57,395 nt of DNA from a virus. A model generated the notes under the pieces. The model saw only the letters and a program-made list of their open reading frames with translations, did not search any database and was not told the origin of the DNA. Positions 5,216 through 55,729 of the stretch are shown here, one piece after another. The translations under genes were made by a program, and so were the position numbers. The number at the start of each line of letters is the position of its first letter. Positions within the stretch are counted from its first letter, which is position 1. Location: the IMG/VR virus record IMGVR_UViG_3300036791_001261, positions 1-57,395 of that record; one strand, given 5' to 3'.

Positions 5216-5602
5216 TCAAGGCCTGGGGTTGCGGGCGAGCCATTCGGCCAGCTCGTCCGGGTCGGCAATCACCAGCGTTTCGGTGTGCCAGTGGTCGCGC
5301 AGTTCGGCGATCTTCGCTTCCTGTGCCTCGCGGAGCTTCCCGCCGGGACGCTTGAATTCGAAAAAGAGATGCGGAAGTGCGTAATCCGGTGTGCCGGCCT
5401 CGTTCCCCTCCGTCCAGCGGACGGGAACCCGCACCCGGCGGCAGGCTTCCACTACCGCCCGGTCCGGCAAAATGAATCGGCCACATTGCAGGCGCAGCGG
5501 ATAGTAGTGGTGCCAGCGCAATAGTTCGAGCGACGTGCGCACCACGTCCCTCTCGGCGAGCTTGAGCTCCGGCGGGCGTAGGCGGAATTCCTCGTCGCTC
5601 AC
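5216..5602 (-). CDS. VRR-NUC domain nuclease
   Basis: A 128-aa protein with the VRR-NUC (PF08774) PD-(D/E)xK core: TPDY (D73), FFEFKRPGG (E82, K84) and the downstream Gln of REAQ (Q94). Stand-alone VRR-NUC proteins are structure-specific DNA nucleases, often next to phage replication genes, as here. The GTG at 5602 is chosen because GGAGGAG lies just upstream and GTGA overlaps the previous stop. A much longer in-frame extension to 6061 would bury two real genes and was discarded. Confidence 0.85.
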   Translation of the reverse strand: MSDEEFRLRPPELKLAERDVVRTSLELLRWHHYYPLRLQCGRFILPDRAVVEACRRVRVPVRWTEGNEAGTPDYALPHLFFEFKRPGGKLREAQEAKIAELRDHWHTETLVIADPDELAEWLARNPRP

Positions 5603-8906: not shown

Positions 8907-9931
8907 AGGGACGCCTGCGGGGGAGCGTTACTCGCACGATCCGCCCGCACCACCGGGTTACGTGTCATGCGGTTGACGCGCTCGATTTCCGCGAGGAGGC
9001 GCTTCAGGTTTTCCATCAACCCCTCGATCATGAGCATGGCGCGCGGCCGGTCTTCGAGCGCCGCGACATGCATCTGGTCGTAGGGCTTTTCGATCTGGTT
9101 GTTGAGCCGCTTGCAATCGCTGATGATGCGGTTGATCGCGCCCGGCGTGATGCGGCCATGCTTGGCCTTGGCGCGCGCCATGCGCCCTTCGGCCGCTTCG
9201 CGGAATCGCTCGACCACCGCCAGTTGCGTTTTCTCATCGCGCGCCTGCCGGATCTCTTGCGCCATGTCCTTGATCTCCCCGGACTGCACGCAGCTCAGGG
9301 TAGTGGCTAATTCCGCCGCTTTTTGAAAAACCACGTCACTGTGGATGGAGCCCAGCGCGAGCGTCGACTTCTGCGGCAGCCGGGTAAAGTCGAAGTTGAA
9401 GTTGCGCGCACGGATATGCGCGCGGCGCTCGGAGTAGGCGTTCGCCAGCATAGGTTCCCGGAGGCTCCATTCCTTGGCCAGGTCTTTGATCGACTTCCCC
9501 GGATACTGATCCTTCAGCACCAAAACCTGCGCAATCACCTCCTGGACGGTCATGCCGCGCCCTTCGATGGCATTGATCTGGCGGGATAATACCTGGCGCC
9601 GGTATTCGTCCGGCTCGATGACGACGTAAGCGTCGAACCAGGAGCGATCGATCGTCTCGGCCCCCCGGATGCGGTGCATGCCGGTGGCGACAATATATTT
9701 GTAGCTGCCGTACGGGGCGGCCAGATTCAACAGCACCAGGGCCGGGAACTCGCAGCCGTTCGCCATGTCATAGCCGTATTGCCAGGCGCGATCGTCGTCC
9801 AGCCGGCGGTTGAGCCGCGCCGGGTTCTCGTCCGAGGCCCGCAGGTCGATTTCTCGAAACTCGACGCGCGGCAGGTAAGTGAAGCTCCAATTACCCCGGT
9901 TGAGGTAATTTTCGGTTTTGGAATCCCGCAT
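8903..9931 (-). CDS. ParB-like protein
   Basis: A 342-aa protein. Residues about 80-125 contain the ParB/Srx-type motif ATGMHRIRG followed by a strand pair (WFDAYVVI), and residues about 140-190 resemble a KorB/ParB helix-turn-helix (SIKDLAKEWSLRE). The C-terminal half is helical and basic. The ATG at 9931 with AAGGAG at good spacing is preferred to a TTG at 9964. No ParA partner is present, so regulation, nicking or DNA bridging is as likely as partition. Confidence 0.75.
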   Translation of the reverse strand: MRDSKTENYLNRGNWSFTYLPRVEFREIDLRASDENPARLNRRLDDDRAWQYGYDMANGCEFPALVLLNLAAPYGSYKYIVATGMHRIRGAETIDRSWFDAYVVIEPDEYRRQVLSRQINAIEGRGMTVQEVIAQVLVLKDQYPGKSIKDLAKEWSLREPMLANAYSERRAHIRARNFNFDFTRLPQKSTLALGSIHSDVVFQKAAELATTLSCVQSGEIKDMAQEIRQARDEKTQLAVVERFREAAEGRMARAKAKHGRITPGAINRIISDCKRLNNQIEKPYDQMHVAALEDRPRAMLMIEGLMENLKRLLAEIERVNRMTRNPVVRADRASNAPPQASL

Positions 9932-47900: not shown

Positions 47901-48046
47901 CGCTTGCCGGAAGTTGAGTCGATGTGGTTCACGCACACAGCAACAAACAAGATCACCAGTAGCAAGGCGATCATGAGGGCCGCATCGAACCAACGCCCGG
48001 ATACAACACAGACTGCGAGCAGCGCGGCGAATAACAGCCACATCAT
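47897..48046 (-). CDS. Small two-span membrane protein (49 aa)
   Basis: A 49-aa protein with two hydrophobic segments (residues about 2-17 and 21-38) and a polar C-terminus. GGGGAGGAACC precedes the ATG, which overlaps the recombinase stop as ATGA. The size fits a small holin, but position in the early-strand operon argues for another role. Confidence 0.66.
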   Translation of the reverse strand: MMWLLFAALLAVCVVSGRWFDAALMIALLLVILFVAVCVNHIDSTSGKR

Positions 48047-48966
48047 TGGTTCCTCCCCAGGCCCAACCGGTCGTTGGGCGCATTCACCAGATCCTGCGTA
48101 GTGCCCAGGTAGCGCTCGGTCGTCTGGATCGACTCATGACCAAGCATCAGCTGGATCTGCTCGAGCGCGCTGCCTGCCGAGCGGCATAACTTCGCGCAGG
48201 TGCGACGAAGGTCGTGCGCCTTGAGCGCCACGCCAATCGTACGGCCGTAGTGCGTGGTGAGGTCCAGGATCGCGGTGCCGCTGATCGAGTCGCCGCCGAT
48301 GTGTCCCCACTGGTCGATGCTGCGGAGAATGGGCCCCGTCTGGAGTTGTGCCGCTTCCGCCCACTGGTCGATCGCGGCCTTCACCCAGGCGGGCACCGCG
48401 ATGGTGCGGATCCGGCCCCGCTTGCCCCGGATGTCGACGATGGCCCAGCGCTCCTCGCGCTGCTGGATGTGCTCGAAGGTGAGTTGTGCCGCTTCCGACC
48501 GCCGCAGGGCGCAGCCCACGAGCAGCGCCAGCACGGCATAGTCGCGCTTCCCCTTGAGCGTCGTCAAGTCGGGGGCGCGGAGCAGCTTCTGGGCTTCGGC
48601 CAGCGTCAGCCAGTTGCCGGCGCGATTGCCCGACTGCCGCGCGTTGGATACCTGCCGGACGGCGGCGGCGGTTTCGGCGTCGAGATAGCCGTTCAGCGCG
48701 GCCTCGGCGGCCAGCTTGCGGATAGCCGCCAGGCACTTGTTGATGGTCGGCGGCTGGAGGCCTCGCCCGACAAGTTCCGTGCGCCAGGCCTGCACGCTGG
48801 CGCGGTTGAACGGAAGCGCGCGCTCGGACTGCCAGGCGAGGAACTCGGCCAGGGCGTGGCCGTACTGCCGCTTGGTTTCGGGATTCGAGACGGCGCCGAG
48901 CACCAGGCCCAGCACCGCCTCGAGCGCGGAGGACTGCGGGATGACGGCAAGCGCTGTGGTCGCCAC
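48043..48966 (-). CDS. Second tyrosine recombinase (Xer-like)
   Basis: A 307-aa protein with XerC/D proportions: SAM-like N-terminal domain (about 25-105) and catalytic domain with R155 (GCALRRSE), K182, H251-x-x-R254 (HDLRRT), H277 (LGHESIQTT) and Tyr286 (RYLG). All catalytic residues are present. It has no tRNA-like att site beside it. Roles could be genome-dimer resolution, a second att system, or an acquired gene. It shares little with the 438-aa integrase outside the catalytic motifs. Confidence 0.92.
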   Translation of the reverse strand: MATTALAVIPQSSALEAVLGLVLGAVSNPETKRQYGHALAEFLAWQSERALPFNRASVQAWRTELVGRGLQPPTINKCLAAIRKLAAEAALNGYLDAETAAAVRQVSNARQSGNRAGNWLTLAEAQKLLRAPDLTTLKGKRDYAVLALLVGCALRRSEAAQLTFEHIQQREERWAIVDIRGKRGRIRTIAVPAWVKAAIDQWAEAAQLQTGPILRSIDQWGHIGGDSISGTAILDLTTHYGRTIGVALKAHDLRRTCAKLCRSAGSALEQIQLMLGHESIQTTERYLGTTQDLVNAPNDRLGLGRNQ

Positions 48967-49193
48967 TAGAGGTCCTCCTTTGCCGGAGCGGGCTCGCAGT
49001 GATGACAGCGGATGCGAGCGAGCTTCAGCGTCATGAGGCCGCAGGGACAGCGCCGCTTCTTCGAGCGCGGTCGGCCCGGACCGGCAGCGTAGGTCATTCG
49101 CAGCGAGGCCAGCTCGCGTGCCCGCTTGGTGCCGATGGGCTTGCCGGGGATACCCGGGGGCCTGCCCTTCTTCTTAGTTTTCGTCTTCGTCAT
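48966..49193 (-). CDS. Basic protein with zinc-ribbon end
   Basis: A 75-aa protein. The first half is Lys/Arg/Gly/Pro-rich with AT-hook-like KKKGRPPG and GPGRPRSKK; the second has CPCG...CHHC. DNA binding is likely. One-base overlap with the recombinase start suggests a linked role, for example accessory factor. Confidence 0.68.
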   Translation of the reverse strand: MTKTKTKKKGRPPGIPGKPIGTKRARELASLRMTYAAGPGRPRSKKRRCPCGLMTLKLARIRCHHCEPAPAKEDL

Positions 49194-49482
49194 GTGCCAA
49201 TGCCTCCAGGATCTCTTTCGCCCGCGCCACCGAGTTCGCCAGTTCGATCCGGGCGAAGTGCTTGGTGGACTCGTAGTGCGCGAACGGCGGCATGCGCTCG
49301 AGGCCCCCCTCCAGGGCCTCGAGATCTGCGAGCAGTTGCTTGTAGCTCAAATCATTTCTCCTTCGGATTTCGAAACAGCCAGCGTCTTCGTCTTCCCCGT
49401 CCTCTTCTTGGTCGTCCTCCACTTCATCCGGTTGGTCGAAAAAGGACGGTTCCTGGAAATAGCGGTCTTCCTGTTCGCTCAT
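49174..49482 (-). CDS. Hypothetical acidic protein
   Basis: A 102-aa protein with a strongly acidic middle (DEVEDDQEEDGEDEDAG) and a helical C-terminal half (LSYKQLLADLEALEGGLERM). ATG at 49482 overlaps the upstream stop as ATGA. Not recognised. Confidence 0.66.
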   Translation of the reverse strand: MSEQEDRYFQEPSFFDQPDEVEDDQEEDGEDEDAGCFEIRRRNDLSYKQLLADLEALEGGLERMPPFAHYESTKHFARIELANSVARAKEILEALAHDEDEN

Positions 49483-49748
49483 CCTATGAACCTCCGCTCT
49501 TCCAGGCGGGTGATGCGATCGCCGTGCTCGGCGACTTTGTCCGAGATGCGCTGGCTTAAGCGCGATTCCATCTCCGTCATCTGGAGCTTCAGCCGCGCTT
49601 CCGAAGTGCCGATTTCCGCCTTGCAAGTGCCGATTTCCGCCTTGATCGTGCGCAGCAGCGGAATTGTGACTATGCCGTAGAGGCCCGCGATCAGTGCAGC
49701 GATAGCGCCGATGGTCGCTGCTATCGGTTGCCAGTATTGTGGATTCAT
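49479..49748 (-). CDS. Membrane protein with coiled coil
   Basis: An 89-aa protein with an N-terminal transmembrane span (IAATIGAIAALIAGLYGIVTI) and a coiled-coil remainder including a repeated KAEIGT. Preceded by the shared leader CGAAAGGACAAGGACAA. The layout is reminiscent of small phage membrane proteins such as holin accessories; function unknown. Confidence 0.68.
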   Translation of the reverse strand: MNPQYWQPIAATIGAIAALIAGLYGIVTIPLLRTIKAEIGTCKAEIGTSEARLKLQMTEMESRLSQRISDKVAEHGDRITRLEERRFIG

Positions 49749-49780
49749 TTGTCCTTGTCCTTTCGCTTGTCTTCAGTCTC

Positions 49781-49792
49781 GCGCTTTCGCGC
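49781..49792 (-). promoter_or_regulatory. Short GAAA-loop hairpin before a leader
   Basis: On the minus strand GCGC-GAAA-GCGC. It lies 14 bases upstream of the CGAAAGGACA leader of the gene starting at 49748. The same order (stem-loop, leader, ATG) is seen elsewhere in this arm. Confidence 0.42.
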
Positions 49793-49836
49793 TGTTATCG
49801 TCAAACGGAGCGTTCGTTCGTGCTATGATTGTGCTG

Positions 49837-49887
49837 TCTATTGTCCTTTCGTTTGCGGGCGGCGTCTTAATGTCCTCGCCGCCCGCA
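49837..49887 (-). promoter_or_regulatory. Stem-loop and leader without a gene (empty cassette)
   Basis: An 11-bp stem (49854-49864 with 49877-49887) begins 8 bases after the stop of the gene at 49895-50356. It is followed on the minus strand by CGAAAGGACAATAGAC, the shared leader, but no ATG or open frame follows. On the plus strand the same stem is followed by GCGTTTTT and may terminate late transcription. Confidence 0.55.
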
Positions 49888-49894
49888 GCGTTTT

Positions 49895-50356
49895 TCAGTC
49901 CTCCACCTCATCCCAGATCCAGCAACCTGTGCCGATGGGATAGGCGTGGACCTTCTCGCCCTCCACGACGATGTCCTCTCCCGGCCAGTCCTCGGGGTCC
50001 TGATCGTCGTACTGAGTGGTCACGATGTCCGCCGCTTCGTCCACGTTCACCCGGTAGCCTTCCGCTTGCGCTTTCTGCCAGGCCACGTACGCGGGTAGCT
50101 GTTCCCGAGTGAAGTAGGGCATCACCCAGCCGTTCCAGTCCTCGCCGACCACGATGTAGGCGGGGAGCGCGGTCCCGCCGTCAATCGTGACCTTCGTCAG
50201 CCGGTAGCGCCGTTGTGCGTCATGGCAGACGCCGCACAGATGCTCCGCCACCTGCCGCGCGATACGCGCCACGCCGTCATAGTCCACTGAGCCGAATTCG
50301 GTCGTGACCTCGTGGCCGCAGGCGGCTTTCAGGATAATCTTGCCTTCAATTCTCAT
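49895..50356 (-). CDS. Hypothetical protein with Cys/His sites
   Basis: A 153-aa protein with ACGHEV and CGVCHD, a likely zinc pair, then a mixed domain (TALPAYIVVGEDWNGWVMPY) and acidic tail. The leader GGAAGGACAGAAC precedes the ATG. Function unknown. Confidence 0.68.
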   Translation of the reverse strand: MRIEGKIILKAACGHEVTTEFGSVDYDGVARIARQVAEHLCGVCHDAQRRYRLTKVTIDGGTALPAYIVVGEDWNGWVMPYFTREQLPAYVAWQKAQAEGYRVNVDEAADIVTTQYDDQDPEDWPGEDIVVEGEKVHAYPIGTGCWIWDEVED

Positions 50357-50655
50357 GTTCTGTCCTTCCAGCCGACGGCGAAGTCGAGCTGCGTGCCCAC
50401 ACCGTCGGTCTCAGCGCTGTAGTGCTCATGGCTCTGTCGGCAGAGGTCGTAAAGGTCTAGCCCGCGCCGGTCGCAGAGGTGGGCCAGATCGGCAATCAGA
50501 TCGTAGATGGCCGTGTCCAGTCCATCGCCTTCTTCCGTGAGGCCGGTGCGCTTCATGAAGCATTGCACGGCATCAAGCGCCCACTCTGCCCGGTCGTCGT
50601 TCTGCTCCTCCGGGTCGGGCGGCAAGGGCTTCGTTTCGTCTTGCTTTTTCGTCAT
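50353..50655 (-). CDS. Hypothetical phage protein
   Basis: A 100-aa helical protein containing LIADLAHLCDRRGLDLYDLC followed by RQSHEHYSAE, a pattern I recall from phage early genes of unknown role. ACGAAAGGACAAGACA leads its ATG; ATGA overlap with the next gene. Confidence 0.7.
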   Translation of the reverse strand: MTKKQDETKPLPPDPEEQNDDRAEWALDAVQCFMKRTGLTEEGDGLDTAIYDLIADLAHLCDRRGLDLYDLCRQSHEHYSAETDGVGTQLDFAVGWKDRT

Positions 50656-50682
50656 TGTCTTGTCCTTTCGTTTGTGCTGATG

Positions 50683-50925
50683 CTATTCGCACTTCCTGCA
50701 ATAGAGGCTGCCGGGGACCTGCAGGCGCTCCAGGCATTCGACGCAGTAGCGCGGATGCTCGGGGTCAATGCCGGTAAGCTCCCGGGCCTCGGCAATCAGC
50801 CGACTGACGGTCTCAACGGCGTCATCCCCGTCCATTCCGCCTTCGATTTCGTATTCGCTCGTCATGCGGGCGATCTGCTCCACAAAGGCCGAAGGGCTGC
50901 GCCATCGGTTCTTAGTTGTGCTCAT
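50683..50925 (-). CDS. Small zinc-ribbon protein
   Basis: An 80-aa protein with a C-terminal CVEC...CRKC ribbon and a helical acidic middle. It starts MSTTKNR, the same seven residues as the upstream gene, with nearly the same DNA. ATGA overlap upstream. Confidence 0.68.
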   Translation of the reverse strand: MSTTKNRWRSPSAFVEQIARMTSEYEIEGGMDGDDAVETVSRLIAEARELTGIDPEHPRYCVECLERLQVPGSLYCRKCE

Positions 50926-51212
50926 TTCTTCACCTCGCTAATCGAGACACGGAACTTGCGCCCGTTGTGCTCGACGACATCGCCGTTCGAGATCACGTAG
51001 TCATCGTTGACGTAGATCACATGATCAAAGTCCTCCTGGCTTTCCGGGTCCTCGTTGTGCTCCCAGTCGTAGTTCTCGTCTACCTGCTTCTGGATCTCCG
51101 CGTGCGCCGTGGTGGCGTCGTTGCGGCCATACGCGGCGAAATAGCAGTAGTTCTCGTCATCGCCATGCGAACGCCAGTTGACGATCTGGATGCGGTTCTT
51201 GGTTGTGCTCAT
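50922..51212 (-). CDS. Hypothetical protein
   Basis: A 96-aa acidic, strand-rich protein (VIYVNDDYVISNGDVVEHNG). It begins MSTTKNR. Leader GGAGGACAAGCA. Not recognised. Confidence 0.66.
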   Translation of the reverse strand: MSTTKNRIQIVNWRSHGDDENYCYFAAYGRNDATTAHAEIQKQVDENYDWEHNEDPESQEDFDHVIYVNDDYVISNGDVVEHNGRKFRVSISEVKK

Positions 51213-51457
51213 TGCTTGTCCTCCTCTCCTTGTCCTTGCACCTCCAGCCCGACAATGTCGAAGCTCTCGTCTTCATTGCAGTCGAAATACTGCTCCGAGC
51301 GCTCATCGGGATCATCCGGCATGGGCGCTTCGTCCATTTCCTTCTCCCACCAGTCCTGGACATAGGCGTCCAGTTGCGCGCAAGCGGCTTCTTCGGTGGT
51401 GAACACCCAGTAGTCCCGACCATGCCTGTGGTCGATGACGAGCAAATGGATAATCAT
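51209..51457 (-). CDS. Hypothetical acidic protein
   Basis: An 82-aa protein; IIHLLVIDHRHGRDYWVF at the start suggests a small alpha/beta fold, and the rest is acidic. ATGA overlaps on both sides place it in a coupled run from 52155 to 50683. Confidence 0.65.
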   Translation of the reverse strand: MIIHLLVIDHRHGRDYWVFTTEEAACAQLDAYVQDWWEKEMDEAPMPDDPDERSEQYFDCNEDESFDIVGLEVQGQGEEDKQ

Positions 51458-52155
51458 GCCGCCCTCTCAATCTGCACGAACCCGCCCGCCGGGAGGTGCT
51501 GGATGATGTGCCCTTTCTCCCGCAGCCCCACAATCACGCCTTTCGGATCGAGGAATCTTAAATCGTGCCGGTCGCCGTCGATGACCCGCACGCCATGCCA
51601 GGTCCGGGGCTTCGCCCCACGGAACACCACCGCCACGTTGATGTTGTGCTCCAAAGCCTTCATGCAGTGCTTTAGGTTTGTGCCGCTAAAGCTATACGTC
51701 AGGTGGTAGTTCTCCATGGTCCGCTCCCACGGCCGCTGGAGTTTCGTGTAATCGTAGAACGGCACCTCGGGATAGCGCCGCGCCATGGCCCGGGCAAGCT
51801 TGGGCTGATCGCTTGTGCCGTTCAGCCGCTCGGCCGGTTTCAGCCCCCGGCTCTCGCACTCCACCAGGAATTTATCCGTGTCCCGCTCCAGGCGAGCGCA
51901 GAACGCCCCGAAGTCCGCGAGATAATCCAGGGTCTTCGCGATCCGGGCCTGCTGGATCGTGGGGTAAACCTCGGCCAGGCCCGAGCAGTTCAGGCAGGCC
52001 AGGGTGCATTCCGGGCTACGTCCGCCGCACAGGTCGTGCACGCCGTCGGCCTCCCTGGCCGGGGCGAGATAGAGCAGCGCCGTGAGCCATCCGTAGGCCT
52101 TGCCCTTTTTGCTCTTGGCGTCGCGGTCGACGCTCAGTAAATCGTATTTTGCCAT
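51454..52155 (-). CDS. GP88/DUF7227-like phage protein
   Basis: A 233-aa protein. It has an N-terminal Cys cluster (CGG...CTLACLNC), then LKPAERLNGTSD, FYDYTKLQRP, NYHLTYSFSG and VAVVFRG in order. This matches a phage family I know as gene product 88-like: unknown function, Cys cluster possibly metal-binding. It follows a promoter-operator candidate (52191-52240) and heads a coupled gene run. Confidence 0.75.
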   Translation of the reverse strand: MAKYDLLSVDRDAKSKKGKAYGWLTALLYLAPAREADGVHDLCGGRSPECTLACLNCSGLAEVYPTIQQARIAKTLDYLADFGAFCARLERDTDKFLVECESRGLKPAERLNGTSDQPKLARAMARRYPEVPFYDYTKLQRPWERTMENYHLTYSFSGTNLKHCMKALEHNINVAVVFRGAKPRTWHGVRVIDGDRHDLRFLDPKGVIVGLREKGHIIQHLPAGGFVQIERAA

Positions 52156-52190
52156 GTCTATGCCCTTTCTGTCATAAGTCCTTGCGTTTC

Positions 52191-52240
52191 AGCGCGATGT
52201 GCGCTGTTTCGAATTTCGCACATCGCGCTGTTTCAGTCAA
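52191..52240 (-). promoter_or_regulatory. Promoter overlapping a 13-bp inverted repeat
   Basis: AGCGCGATGTGCG (52191-52203) and its exact inverse (52217-52229) flank 13 bases. On the minus strand TTGACT (52240-52235) and a weak GAAATT (52217-52212) are 17 bases apart and overlap the repeat. GAAACAGCGC also repeats directly. It could be a repressed promoter or, read as RNA, another stem-loop before a leader. Confidence 0.5.
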
Positions 52241-52268
52241 GAAATTTCAAATTTTTTTTGTGCGCCCG

Positions 52269-52571
52269 CTAATCCAGGTCCTCCTTGCCTGCGGCGGTCT
52301 TGTCGATGTCCACGACGATGCGGCTGAAGGCCTCGCGGAATTCCTCCACGGCCTCCTTCGTGGTCATGCATTGGGCTGCGATATTGAGCGGCGCCAGGAA
52401 CCGCTGGACGGCCCGCAGGGCTTGTGCCTGCAGGTCGAACGGCAGGCAGTCGAACAGGCTTAGTGCGTCGGACTGGTTAAGGGCCTCGCGCAGCATGGTG
52501 CGGAAGATGTGATCGTAGGCCGGGGTCAGTACGATCTCCCGGGCGTCGGCGTCGTTCGATGGGTTGTGCAT
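52269..52571 (-). CDS. Hypothetical protein
   Basis: A 100-aa helical protein (DHIFRTMLREALNQSDALSL, EAVEEFREAFSRIVVDID). Its start lies one base from the stop of the upstream gene. Not recognised. An AT-rich gap with A/T runs follows its stop. Confidence 0.67.
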   Translation of the reverse strand: MHNPSNDADAREIVLTPAYDHIFRTMLREALNQSDALSLFDCLPFDLQAQALRAVQRFLAPLNIAAQCMTTKEAVEEFREAFSRIVVDIDKTAAGKEDLD

Positions 52572-52572
52572 T

Positions 52573-52773
52573 TCAGTCGTCCTCCTCGTCTCGAAATGTC
52601 TCTTTCCAGCATTCGCCGCAGATCCCGCTCAGGAGCAGTTCCCGTTCAGCGGCGGGCACGTCGGGCATTGCCTGCTGGGCTAGTGCTCCGTTCTTCCAGT
52701 CCTGGAATTGCTCTTCAGTGCAGTGGATGGGGCGCGGTTTGCCGCAGACCACGCAGGTTCGTGCGATAGCCAT
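52573..52773 (-). CDS. Small zinc-binding phage protein
   Basis: A 66-aa protein: CVVCGKPRPIHCTEEQ at the start and LLSGICGECW near the end, the usual pattern of a small four-Cys phage protein family of unknown function. Confidence 0.75.
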   Translation of the reverse strand: MAIARTCVVCGKPRPIHCTEEQFQDWKNGALAQQAMPDVPAAERELLLSGICGECWKETFRDEEDD

Positions 52774-52777
52774 AGTG

Positions 52778-53086
52778 TTAGTCCTCCTCCTCTTCGTCTT
52801 CGCCCGATTCTGCCGGCGTGGCGATGACCACGTCGCCGACGATGTAATCGCTCCAGGCCATGCCGGAGTGTTGTGCCGCGATCAGATCCGCGACCGGGTT
52901 GTAGGGCAGATCGTTGAGCTTGCCCTCCTCGGCGAGCCACATGACCGTGCCATCGTTGAGCGGCAGGGCTTCGATCACCCCTCCGACCATGTGTTGAAGC
53001 TCTTCGAGCGTGAACGCCTTGCCATTGCGCGGCGTGATGCTGGTGCTCGATACGGTTTCGCCTTCGACTCTAATCCAGAGCGCCAT
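52778..53086 (-). CDS. DUF3846 domain protein
   Basis: A 102-aa protein matching DUF3846 (PF12957): GKAFTLEELQHMVGGVIEAL, then MWLAEEGKLNDLPYNPVAD and IVGDVVIAT. These proteins are common in mobile elements and phages; function unknown. Leader CTGAAAGGACAAGAAC precedes the ATG inside the upstream gene. Confidence 0.88.
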   Translation of the reverse strand: MALWIRVEGETVSSTSITPRNGKAFTLEELQHMVGGVIEALPLNDGTVMWLAEEGKLNDLPYNPVADLIAAQHSGMAWSDYIVGDVVIATPAESGEDEEEED

Positions 53087-53270
53087 GTTCTTGTCCTTTC
53101 AGTTTGTTGATGGCATGCGCTATCGCTTTTTGTGCCGCGTACGAGTCATAGTCCGCGATGTAAGTGTGCAGTCCGGGCAAATCCGGATGGGTATATTCGT
53201 GGTGCGTGGTGCCGATCAGCTTGTGCTCGAATCCTTGCGCCACGAGATAGACGTGCAGCGGGTGTTTCAT
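53070..53270 (-). CDS. Hypothetical small protein
   Basis: A 66-aa alpha/beta protein (LHVYLVAQGFEHKLIG, THHEYTHPDL, AAQKAIAHAINKLK). Some resemblance in size to HicA-type folds, but no antitoxin partner or catalytic His pattern is clear. Leader CGAAAGGACAAAGAC; its end overlaps the next gene by 17 bases. Confidence 0.64.
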   Translation of the reverse strand: MKHPLHVYLVAQGFEHKLIGTTHHEYTHPDLPGLHTYIADYDSYAAQKAIAHAINKLKGQEHGALD

Positions 53271-53295
53271 ACGTCTTTGTCCTTTCGTTGTGCCA

Positions 53296-53315
53296 GGGGA
53301 GGCTTACGCCTCCCC
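53296..53315 (-). promoter_or_regulatory. Intercistronic stem-loop
   Basis: GGGGAGGC and GCCTCCCC pair (8 bp) around four bases. It begins 5 bases after the stop of the gene at 53321-53758 and ends about 8 bases before the CGAAAGGACA leader of the gene starting at 53270. No T-run follows. Confidence 0.6.
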
Positions 53316-53320
53316 ATGGG

Positions 53321-53758
53321 TTACCCGTTGCGTCCTTCCCTGATCATGCGATCGAGTGCGGCGACGCCCTCCGCCACGGTAATGTCCTTCAAGCTGCGGT
53401 AGTGCAGTTCGTCCGTGCCGTAGTTGTGATCCAGCCTCCAGGCGTCCTCGGCCATGTAGCCTCCCCGGTTGAAGAACAGGCGTTCGGCCTGGTGCAGGTC
53501 GAGCCCCAGTAGTGCAGCGGCGTTATCGCCGGTGATCTGGTCTCCGTCTTCGCCGAACAGCAGGCAAGTCCATCCGGCCAGACAGCCGGACGTGCCGCAG
53601 CTCTCCGTTGTGCCGAGGAATTTCCTGGCGTCGTCCACGTAGTTCAGCCCCATGGCCTCGATGAACGTGCCCATGTTGAAGTGCAGCTTGCCGTTGAATG
53701 CCTGGCCCTCGGCCAGGGCGTTGCGTAGTGCCGTCATCCGTTCGATGTTCATGTTCAT
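53321..53758 (-). CDS. Conserved phage protein with C-x4-C-x-AGW motif
   Basis: A 145-aa protein. The centre reads ESCGTSGCLAGWTCLLFG, a motif that recurs in phage and bacterial proteins of unknown role, with LHFNMGTF before it and LGLDLHQAERLFF after. Starts MNMNIER; the doubled GAACAT at the start lengthens the shared leader CGAAAGGACATGAAC. Confidence 0.76.
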   Translation of the reverse strand: MNMNIERMTALRNALAEGQAFNGKLHFNMGTFIEAMGLNYVDDARKFLGTTESCGTSGCLAGWTCLLFGEDGDQITGDNAAALLGLDLHQAERLFFNRGGYMAEDAWRLDHNYGTDELHYRSLKDITVAEGVAALDRMIREGRNG

Positions 53759-53776
53759 GTCCTTTCGTCTTGCTGA

Positions 53777-53799
53777 AGGGGAGAGTTGTGCTCTCCCCT
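53777..53799 (-). promoter_or_regulatory. Intercistronic stem-loop
   Basis: AGGGGAGAG and CTCTCCCCT pair (9 bp) around five bases, starting 8 bases after the stop of the gene at 53807 and a few bases before the leader of the gene at 53758. Confidence 0.6.
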
Positions 53800-53806
53800 A
53801 GATTGT

Positions 53807-54001
53807 TTAGGTGTGGATGTAACCGTCATACTCGATGCCGATGTACATCCCCCATCGCTCGAAGAAGTAGTGATCGTAGTTGTGCCGGATGAGCGGGAGT
53901 ATCTCTGCCGCCTGATCGGGCCATGCCTTGGTCACGGCGTTGACCACCGCCACGGGCAGGACTTCGTCCGGCAATAGTGCCAATTGCCTAGTGCTGCTCA
54001 T
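53807..54001 (-). CDS. Hypothetical small protein
   Basis: A 64-aa protein (EVLPVAVVNAVTKAWPDQAA, HYFFERWGMYIGIEYDG). Overlaps the upstream gene by 14 bases. Not recognised. Confidence 0.64.
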   Translation of the reverse strand: MSSTRQLALLPDEVLPVAVVNAVTKAWPDQAAEILPLIRHNYDHYFFERWGMYIGIEYDGYIHT

Positions 54002-54239
54002 CGGCTGTCTCCAGCTTTACCAAGCCCATGACCAGCAGCTCCTCCAGGCCATAGACCTTGGCTGCGCCACAGGCCTCGCATTCGTATCGTCTGGCGTCCG
54101 GCTCTACGCCTGTGGTCTCCGCTCCGCAGGCCAGGCAAAAGCCTGCGCTGTCGCCATCAGCCTGGATATACTCCCGTTCGCTCATGACAGGGCGATACTG
54201 TTTCGCCCCGTGCCTTGTCGTGTACGTCTCTACGGTCAT
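53988..54239 (-). CDS. Conserved zinc-ribbon protein
   Basis: An 83-aa protein: FCLACGAETTGVEP, then YECEACGAAKVYGLEELL. This four-Cys motif order is well conserved in a phage/bacterial family of unknown function, probably a zinc ribbon. Leader CGAAAGGACATAGAC right before the ATG. Confidence 0.78.
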   Translation of the reverse strand: MTVETYTTRHGAKQYRPVMSEREYIQADGDSAGFCLACGAETTGVEPDARRYECEACGAAKVYGLEELLVMGLVKLETADEQH

Positions 54240-54273
54240 GTCTATGTCCTTTCGTCTTAGCCTGTCTCATCAG

Positions 54274-54317
54274 CATGGGTAGGCTATCTCCCATGGACCA
54301 GGGACGATGTCCCTGGT
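54274..54317 (-). promoter_or_regulatory. Two intercistronic stem-loops
   Basis: ACCAGGGAC (54297-54305) pairs with GTCCCTGGT (54309-54317), 9 bp with a three-base loop, starting 5 bases after the stop of the gene at 54323. A second, weaker CATGGG/CCCATG stem (54274-54295) lies between it and the leader of the gene at 54239. Confidence 0.58.
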
Positions 54318-54322
54318 TTCGA

Positions 54323-54580
54323 CTATCCCCGCAGGTCCTGCCGTATGGCGTTGACTGCAGACCATTCGTCAAAGGCGTCATTCCGTTTCTCGTCCTCCGG
54401 TGTCTGGTAGCCTTTGCCTTGGCATCGATAACACTCACCGCCTGGACCCGTAGGCTTGCCATTGACCACCATGGTCACGAACTGTCCAGTCCCCGCGCAT
54501 CGTCCGCAGAACACGCCCACGACCTTGGTCCCGTCGTGGATTTCGCCCGTAGACTTTCTCCGATATAGCTTCATGTCCAT
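54323..54580 (-). CDS. DnaJ-type zinc-finger protein
   Basis: An 85-aa protein with two CxxCxGxG-like knuckles: CGRCAGTGQF and CYRCQGKGYQ, as in the DnaJ Cys-rich region. Such small stand-alone proteins occur in phages; a chaperone or nucleic-acid role is not established. Leader GGAGGACATGGAC. Confidence 0.74.
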   Translation of the reverse strand: MDMKLYRRKSTGEIHDGTKVVGVFCGRCAGTGQFVTMVVNGKPTGPGGECYRCQGKGYQTPEDEKRNDAFDEWSAVNAIRQDLRG

Positions 54581-54593
54581 GTCCTCCAGGGTT

Positions 54594-54617
54594 AGGGGAG
54601 AGCCGAAGCCCTCCCCT
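54594..54617 (-). promoter_or_regulatory. Intercistronic stem-loop
   Basis: AGGGGAG and CTCCCCT pair (7 bp, extendable by GC past one mismatch). It begins 9 bases after the stop of the gene at 54627 and precedes the leader of the gene at 54580. Confidence 0.55.
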
Positions 54618-54626
54618 CGTCTTCCC

Positions 54627-54962
54627 TTACTCCTGCCCCTTTCTCTTCAGCCGCGAGTCGTTCGCCTTCATGAAGGCTTCGATATCGCCCTTAGCCTGGA
54701 ACAGCCGTTGCCATTGCTCCACGTACAGCGTGAAGGGGAATCGTCCCATCCCGTAGACCGAGAGCGCGCCCTTCTCCGAGATCCTCAGGCTTAGCCCGGT
54801 CTGAGGCTTACTCCTCAAGGCTTCGTTCTCAGCCTTCAGCTTGTCTATCTCCAGCTCCAGGAGTAGCTGAGCCTCAGTCTTAACCGGGATGATCGGCGTG
54901 CTTAGAACAGCCTCATTGCTGATCATCGCCCCATTCACTGGCCTATTCGTCGTCTTACCCAT
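54627..54962 (-). CDS. Conserved phage protein with coiled coil
   Basis: A 111-aa protein: coiled coil (LLLELEIDKLKAENEALRS), then LSLRISEKGALSVYGMGRFP and LYVEQWQRLF. The second part is a phage motif I recall with unknown function. Leader CGAAAGGACATAGAC; first gene of this run behind the 767-base noncoding stretch. Confidence 0.75.
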   Translation of the reverse strand: MGKTTNRPVNGAMISNEAVLSTPIIPVKTEAQLLLELEIDKLKAENEALRSKPQTGLSLRISEKGALSVYGMGRFPFTLYVEQWQRLFQAKGDIEAFMKANDSRLKRKGQE

Positions 54963-55729
54963 GGTCTATGTCCTTTCGTGCGGCGCAATTGCCGCACCTC
55001 GATCGTTGCACGCAAACAGCGCAAATGCAAGCGAATTCGCAGGGCGCCTGCAAAAAAAACTGAACGCGCAAACGCGGTCGGCAGCGGTCGGCAGAATGCC
55101 GCGCAACCGAGCGGAAACGGCCCCAGGATCGCTTGCAGCGCGTCGGGCGGTATGCTGGCATCAAACGCGGCGGCGATCGCGCTACGGGCAGCTAAACGCG
55201 ATTTGCGGCGATTTCCGCATGGGTTAGGCTGATAGTGGGTGGGGGCGGCGTCGGTTTAAAAGTGGGCTGGAACGGGTATAACTTGCGGGATATGAAGAGC
55301 ATAGGGCAAGTCAAACCCTGGCGCAAGGGGAAAATTGCGCAAGGGTAATGCGTGATGTGATACAGGCTACAGCGCTGCAAGTGCCGAGTGCTATGCCATG
55401 GGGATACCAAGGCGCGTTGCCGCATCGCGTGTGGGAATTCGGATTCCCGCAAGCGATCGGACACCTTGGCACGGCGTACCCGTAGCCTAGACTAAGTCCT
55501 GTCCTTGCTACGACATAGACGTGGGCAAAGGGTACTACCATAGGGCTAGGGCTAGAGCTGGACGTTGTCCAGGGGGTGGGGGCCCTGCTGCGCCTGTTAG
55601 CTTCATCCCCGCATAGAATTTTTCGCTGCTGATTTTTTTGCTTTGCGCGCTGATTTTATCAGTGGATTTTGCAAAAAGCCGGGAATTTCCGCGCGCGCGG
55701 AAGTTGCGCGGAAGTTTTCTGCGCGGAAA
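54963..55729. other. Large noncoding region with dyads and repeats
   Basis: No gene supported in 767 bases; open frames have unlikely composition. It contains a GTGCGGC/GCCGCAC stem (54978-54997) before the first leader, repeated GCGCAAGGG near 55321 and 55337, a GGGAATTCGGATTCCC dyad near 55434, TGGAC/GTCCA near 55559, the CTGATTTTATCAG dyad (55650-55662), and GCGCGGAA three times near 55690-55735. A second regulatory or replication region is possible. Confidence 0.45.

Follow-up and report, generated by a model that had tools for sequence, protein, structure and literature searches.

What the stem-loops and the recurrent leader between the small genes of a viral chromosome arm might do was the question raised by the IMG/VR virus record IMGVR_UViG_3300036791_001261, a viral record of 57,395 bases that was analysed at its full length and is called the window below. 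The right arm of the window, which spans 48043-54962 on the minus strand, consists of small genes in a row, the last of them for a tyrosine integrase. A preliminary description of this arm had treated five stem-loops as elements of a single kind, each placed shortly after a stop codon and upstream of a shared leader. All five proved to be present, but the hairpins are of at least two kinds: one of the five (54297-54317) belongs to a hammerhead ribozyme that the description had not recognised, whereas the others are plain hairpins.

A type II hammerhead ribozyme at 54259-54323

The minus-strand sequence from 54323 to 54259 is a complete type II hammerhead ribozyme that is predicted to be self-cleaving. 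Read 5' to 3' from 54323, it is GUC-GAAA-CCAGGGAC-AUC-GUCCCUGG-U-C/CAUGGG-AGAUAGCCUA-CCCAUG-CUGAUGA-GAC-AGGCU, and its parts, with the evidence for each, are as follows.

54259-54323, minus strand: type II hammerhead (GUC-GAAA...CUGAUGA-GAC-AGGCU), core plus pseudoknot tail; pattern, descriptor and covariance model
54323-54325, minus strand: TAG of the upstream gene, its G being the first base of stem II (GUC); sequence
54297-54317, minus strand: stem III hairpin, an A15.1-U16.1 closing pair plus 8 bp; hairpin p = 0.002, covariance model alignment
54295-54296, minus strand: predicted cleavage site, C54296 (C17 of GUC)/C54295; placed from the position of the core
54274-54295, minus strand: stem I (CAUGGG/CCCAUG), 6 bp, with loop AGAUAGCCUA; covariance model alignment, covariation of helix 3
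54281-54285, minus strand: pseudoknot strand AGCCU in loop I; pairs with 54259-54263
54259-54263, minus strand: pseudoknot tail strand AGGCU, 3' of stem II; helix 4, pairing in 88% of cells and two-sided changes in 4 of its 5 pairs

The three segments of the core are all in place (CUGAUGA at 54273-54267, GAAA at 54320-54317 and UC at 54297-54296). Stems I and III are closed by loops and the 3-bp stem II (GUC/GAC) is open, which is the type II layout, and the pseudoknot between loop I and the tail, common though not universal in type II, is present as AGCCU/AGGCU. The window contains an exact match to the hammerhead pattern, with 0 expected in shuffles. Moreover, a covariance model (R1) made from 27 hammerheads of other viral contigs, with neither the window nor its close relative L007 (IMGVR_UViG_3300032261_000044) in the training set, scored the window copy at 65.4 bits (E 1.2e-16) and the copies in L007 at 58-63 bits. 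A second, weak hit of the model (54633-54683, 14.9 bits) lies within a coding sequence, that of the gene starting at 54962, has broken pairs and was dismissed as chance; other weak Rfam hits (naRNA4, proV and miRNA families) were far under the cut-off.

Recurrence in other viral contigs and in a close relative

When all IMG/VR contigs were searched with a pattern that requires neither stem III nor stem I (GTCGAAAC-N25-50-CTGANGAGAC), at least 120 stretches were recovered. Among the matches listed, 130 of 141 distinct ones formed both stems around a UH, versus 9 of 7050 shuffled interiors; 124 of these 130 relatives have UC at the cleavage site, and a loop I-tail pseudoknot of at least 4 bp was found in 55%, versus 15% with the tails permuted. 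A looser descriptor gave 168 matches in the fetched loci and 0 in reversed sequence. In the alignment of the 27 copies used for the model, which had been selected for the presence of the pseudoknot, 94% of the cells pair and there are 124 two-sided changes versus 34 in shuffles, pseudoknot included. The suggestion that selection acts on structure is supported by strong covariation among the hammerhead relatives of one of the five stems; as to the plain stems, they differ in sequence from gap to gap.

The position of the element recurs as well. The stop codon of an upstream open reading frame (ORF) ends 2-9 nucleotides (nt) before GAAA in 105 of 136 related copies (77%) among the matches listed, compared with 3.7% at random positions and 7 of 73 at other GTCGAAA sites. 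Likewise, a start codon bearing a Shine-Dalgarno (SD) sequence follows within 90 nt in 125 of 155 copies among the matches listed, versus 20% at random. One-strand arrays occur within single phages (13, 8 and 8 copies in G017, G015 and G016, respectively), and a hammerhead followed by AAAGGACA directly before ATG, as in the window, was found in 10 further viral contigs, including two near-identical pairs. The unit of stop codon, hammerhead, SD leader and ATG recurs in many viral contigs, with up to 13 units per phage, and arrays of it are found in many unrelated phages. Another dense array was noticed in one contig, with about a dozen hammerheads in ~5.5 kb (L291, 3165-8610).

No near DNA relative of the window was found among 50,697 phage records, and the closest terminase of a cultured phage is that of the Tunturiibacter phages Tunturi_1/2, at 32% identity. 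L007 is close, with 80% identity in the protein encoded at 51454-52155, and carries three hammerhead copies (4484, 4821 and 5400). The copy at 5400 has the pseudoknot GACCU/AGGUC where the window has AGCCU/AGGCU, a compensatory change, and in all three copies the sequence of stem III is unlike that of the window while its pairing is kept. The genes starting at 54962 and 54580, named geneA and geneB in what follows, have orthologs in L007 at 4155 (63% identity) and 4561 (71% identity); no relatives of geneB, nor of the gene starting at 54239, were found in viral contigs. The gap between geneA and geneB contains a plain hairpin in the window and a hammerhead in L007, whereas on the 3' side of geneB both phages have a hammerhead but a different gene comes next. 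The gene at 53807-54001 is followed in both phages by a plain hairpin, and the two hairpins are unrelated in sequence. Position is thus conserved and the parts are exchangeable, in so far as this can be judged from one or two junctions.

The leader and the plain hairpins

The leader is a SD sequence, but a longer and more uniform one than usual. AAAGGA is complementary to the usual 3' end of 16S rRNA (UCCUUU), so that the leader is a strong SD sequence with a standardised surround. The preliminary description was largely right to place it before the minus-strand genes of the arm: GAAAGGACA occurs eight times on the minus strand of the window, always within 49764-54977, and is absent from the plus strand, and CGAAAGGACANNNAC has five exact sites plus a sixth with one mismatch, all on the minus strand. 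AAAGGACA is present in 8 copies in the arm of the window and in 10 in that of L007, against 0.1 expected in each (for the window, from base and dinucleotide content). It is scarcely credible that this is a mere chance set of similar SD sites: the inclusion of AAAGGA, complementary to the usual 16S end, favours such a view, but eight GAAAGGACA copies lie on one strand within 5 kb with none elsewhere, and the excess, far above chance and limited to one strand of one arm, is repeated in L007. No such leader was seen in G006 or G008, which makes it lineage-specific. The following copies were located.

54964-54978, minus strand: leader before ATG 54962
54240-54254, minus strand: leader CGAAAGGACATAGAC before ATG 54239
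53753-53767, minus strand: leader CGAAAGGACATGAAC, spacing favouring ATG 53752
53273-53287, minus strand: leader before ATG 53270
53087-53101, minus strand: leader TGAAAGGACAAGAAC before ATG 53086
50658-50670, minus strand: leader CGAAAGGACAAGA before ATG 50655
49751-49765, minus strand: leader CGAAAGGACAAGGAC before ATG 49748
49836-49851, minus strand: 'empty' leader CGAAAGGACAATAGAC, with no start codon after it

Seven of the starts listed in the description therefore bear the leader (54962, 54239, 53758, 53270, 53086, 50655 and 49748), two have variants of it (52155 with GAAAGGGCATAGAC and 50356 with GGAAGGACAGAAC), and 51212 and 54580 have the GGAGGACA part alone. For 54580 and 53758 the leader spacing fits an in-frame ATG 6 nt downstream better (54574 and 53752). 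In the aligned copies, information is high across ACGAAAGGACA and is followed by a loose ATAGAC spacer; since the copies were chosen by AAAGGAC, positions outside this core alone are informative. GAAAGGACANNNACATG, tried as a leader search pattern over all viral contigs, gave many single, chance-like matches and was unspecific. A leader without a start (GAAAGGACAATAGAC) is found in both phages, at 49836-49851 in the window and at 9075-9089 in L007, each time after a hairpin, which in L007 is an intrinsic terminator with a T-run. The empty leader could be what is left of a lost gene, or else a sign of a non-translational role of the leader.

Every gap of at least 28 nt in the true gene string contains a hairpin; the one exception, at the site of the 51209-51457 gene, is a gene-calling artefact. 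The perfect Watson-Crick stems of 7-11 bp differ from shuffled sequence at p <= 0.002 for four of them and at p = 0.08 for 54594-54617, a stem that is longer once G-U pairs are counted. The inventory of five stems had missed a 7-bp stem at 54978-54997, ahead of the first gene, and a 14-bp stem, included here with the plain hairpins.

54594-54617, minus strand: plain hairpin between geneA and geneB; a hammerhead at the orthologous junction of L007
53777-53799, minus strand: plain hairpin, 9 bp, stop 7 nt upstream
53296-53315, minus strand: plain hairpin, 8 bp, stop 5 nt upstream
49854-49887, minus strand: plain hairpin, 11 bp, stop 7 nt upstream, preceding the empty leader
52190-52230, minus strand: hairpin of 14 bp with a 13-nt loop, ahead of the 52155 gene

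As had been proposed, the stems are conserved in position and not in sequence, within this phage group only. The plain hairpins do not seem to be degenerate hammerheads, as the descriptor found no GAAA/CUGANGA remnants in them, nor are they a trait of all phages with hammerhead arrays, being mostly missing from the hammerhead-less gaps of G015-G018. They may be end caps, RNase III sites or insulators.

Some further features of the arm were observed. The 14-bp hairpin stands beside a TTGACT with direct repeats GAAACAGCGC, and 52190-52241 resembles an internal promoter or operator region of the arm. One coding region contains a 10-bp stem (CTCGAGGCCCTGGAGGGGGGCCTCGAG; 49297-49323 in the window, near 10378-10411 in L007) that is nearly unchanged between the two phages, although they are otherwise ~71% identical in the neighbouring stretch. 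The top over-represented hexamer of the right arm is GCACAA(C), with 22 copies versus 2.8 expected, all on the coding strand and evenly spread over the reading frames (6/5/6); 17 lie within genes, where synonymous-codon shuffling gave a mean of 4.4 and a maximum of 10 (300 shuffles), and it is also found upstream of several leaders. Sites were mapped at 48351-53885 in the window (minus strand), 4949-11377 in L007, 7100-7570 in L266 (minus), in L267 (minus) and at 8926-8975 in L265, where the copies have an 11-bp period and stand just before a TTGACA-like box. The motif is clustered near the integrase in G001, G006, G008 and G009, which carry a related integrase; such clustering was not seen in the more distant G010-G013. 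GCACAA(C) is perhaps a stoperator-like or operator site. Finally, diverged repeat arrays with a period of ~36 bp (CGGTTCACTC...) or of CGGCTCGCTC/CGGTTCTCTC were seen in the relatives G006 and G008, at 2959-3990 in L265 and at 11000-11500 in L266. These long arrays are possibly replication or regulatory iterons, and no equivalent of them was seen in the window.

Proposed processing of the early message and alternative explanations

We consider it likely that the stop-docked type II hammerhead and the uniform SD leader serve to cut the early mRNA into hairpin-capped, gene-sized pieces. From what was observed, namely the sequence and its fold, the covariation, the placement with respect to stop and start codons, and the recurrence, we infer cleavage in the cell, stabilisation of the products, their separate translation and a related role for the plain hairpins. 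A polycistronic early mRNA would be transcribed from the minus strand of the right arm, and the ribozyme would fold just 3' of the upstream UAG and cut co-transcriptionally after GGUC (54296/54295). The upstream mRNA would be left with the stem III hairpin as its end, and the downstream mRNA would have a 5'-OH, followed at once by the stem I hairpin (and the pseudoknot), ~40 nt before the AAAGGA site; the leader itself is a strong but ordinary ribosome-binding site (AAAGGA, with a spacing of 7 nt) that has been homogenised throughout the arm. Since both new ends would be capped by hairpins, separate, more stable and separately translated gene-sized mRNAs are likely. In the other gaps, the plain stop-proximal hairpins probably serve likewise for end-capping or processing, but do not cut themselves. 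Type II arrays of prophages have been shown to cut polycistronic RNA in vitro, those of Agrobacterium in E. coli as well (PMC3088659), and on this ground we judge cutting here to be very likely. That the stems could control mRNA processing, as had been suggested, is supported by the presence of one of the five in a predicted self-cleaving ribozyme, of which the close relative has three. Processing into stable gene-sized mRNAs is probably the most economical function, and the docking on the stop codon suggests that cutting could be coupled to translation termination.

Several findings weigh against this interpretation. The Rfam model Hammerhead_II (RF02276) gave no hit in the window, either at its gathering cut-off or with E values of up to 10, and Rfam at gathering and at E <= 1/10 reported no hammerhead in L007 either. 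It was because Rfam missed these copies that the independent test was made, and the 16 copies that RF02276 does report in sister loci tie the hammerhead set to the known family. In addition, stem II and the tail pairing are displaced in the minimum-energy fold computed without pseudoknots (-30.5 versus -23.8 kcal/mol for the hammerhead fold), so that hammerhead folding would rely on the pseudoknot or on co-transcriptional order. The window has a single copy, and hence one predicted cut at most, and the more distant relatives G006, G008 and G009 are without hammerheads.

The plain hairpins could be ordinary terminators or RNase III sites unconnected with the hammerhead, an explanation that concerns these stems only, is compatible with the ribozyme at 54259-54323, and deserves consideration even if we think it somewhat less likely than not. 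They are GC-rich and immediately follow stops, and one true terminator, complete with its T-run, is present in L007 (near 9022-9055); on the other hand, none of the minus-strand stems of the window has a coding-strand T-run after it, which led us to reject intrinsic terminators, the sole minus-strand terminator-like site being elsewhere, and at the geneA/geneB junction plain hairpin and hammerhead are swapped between orthologs. Alternatively, a true self-cutting RNA could lower expression or couple it to translation, a ribosome at the UAG covering the stem II strand, so that cutting would vary with the frequency of translation of the upstream gene and would destabilise one product instead of protecting it. 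In most copies the stop codon and the beginning of stem II do coincide or lie only a few bases apart, such that a ribosome at termination would extend over stem II and some of stem III, but stop docking may merely reflect the compactness of phage genomes, and we regard this option as unlikely.

It is more doubtful still that the stems, the hammerhead included, are DNA or RNA units for gene gain, that is, recombination spots between cassettes, with self-cleavage incidental. One leader stands ahead of unrelated genes, an empty leader occurs in both phages, gene order differs between the window and its relatives (the genes 53086, 52773 and 52571 stand in another order than their orthologs in L007 and L265), and geneB retains its 3' hammerhead though the next gene differs; to this extent the earlier idea of a unit for gene gain has some support. 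However, stem sequences vary from gap to gap, leaving little homology for recombination, and compensatory changes have preserved the core and the pseudoknot of the hammerhead, which argues for a function as RNA.

The type II hammerhead with its pseudoknot, and the clustering of such ribozymes beside prophage genes, were described in 2011 (Perreault et al., PMC3088659), and in 2017 a review still regarded the purpose of prokaryotic hammerheads as an open question (PMC6155905). The present system has in common with the known type II hammerheads (RF02276; PMC3088659) the core, the permutation (stem II open), the short stem II, the pseudoknot between loop I and the 3' tail, the clusters flanking prophage genes and the suggested cutting into gene-sized mRNAs. 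Beyond that work, in whose main text 'stop codon' occurs 0 times, are the stop-codon docking of 77% of the 136 copies, the phage-wide uniform SD leader and the interchange of hammerhead and plain hairpin at an orthologous junction. In the early region of the HF1/HF2 haloviruses, too, a hammerhead closely precedes a start codon, but it is another variant at a single site, 13 nt before a helicase start, in a different host domain (PMC3088659). The comparison with the start-associated sequences (SAS) and extended SAS (ESAS) of cluster K mycobacteriophages (PMC3203893) holds for the layout, i.e. a repeated SD-containing leader before right-arm non-structural genes in one orientation, about half of the leaders having an inverted repeat upstream. 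It fails for the sequence, the shared repeat consensus and RNA pairing: the 13-bp SAS repeat GGGATAGGAGCCC is not that of the window, (A/C)GAAAGGACA, and the 17-bp ESAS inverted repeats share a subcluster consensus whereas the window stems vary in length and sequence. The authors found little support for RNA pairing of the ESAS repeats (PMC3203893), which are probably not paired as RNA; the window stems pair well, and one is in a ribozyme.

With the hammerhead, its pseudoknot and its prophage clustering already known, stop-codon docking is the most useful new detail; we found no stop-docked phage hammerheads in the open-access literature, and later work may exist. A bolder proposal, which we put forward as speculative, is that phages of many lineages use a general junction unit, a stop fused to a hammerhead and followed by a uniform SD leader, in which termination would gate folding and the early message would be cut into single-gene mRNAs in step with translation, plain hairpins being interchangeable with it in the present group. 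Stop docking, one-strand arrays and the place before a SD leader make the mRNA-processing idea directly testable, and the dense arrays of L291 and of G017 (locus L281) would be good test cases. More generally, 'stem-loop plus leader' cassettes of phages can conceal ribozymes that Rfam misses.

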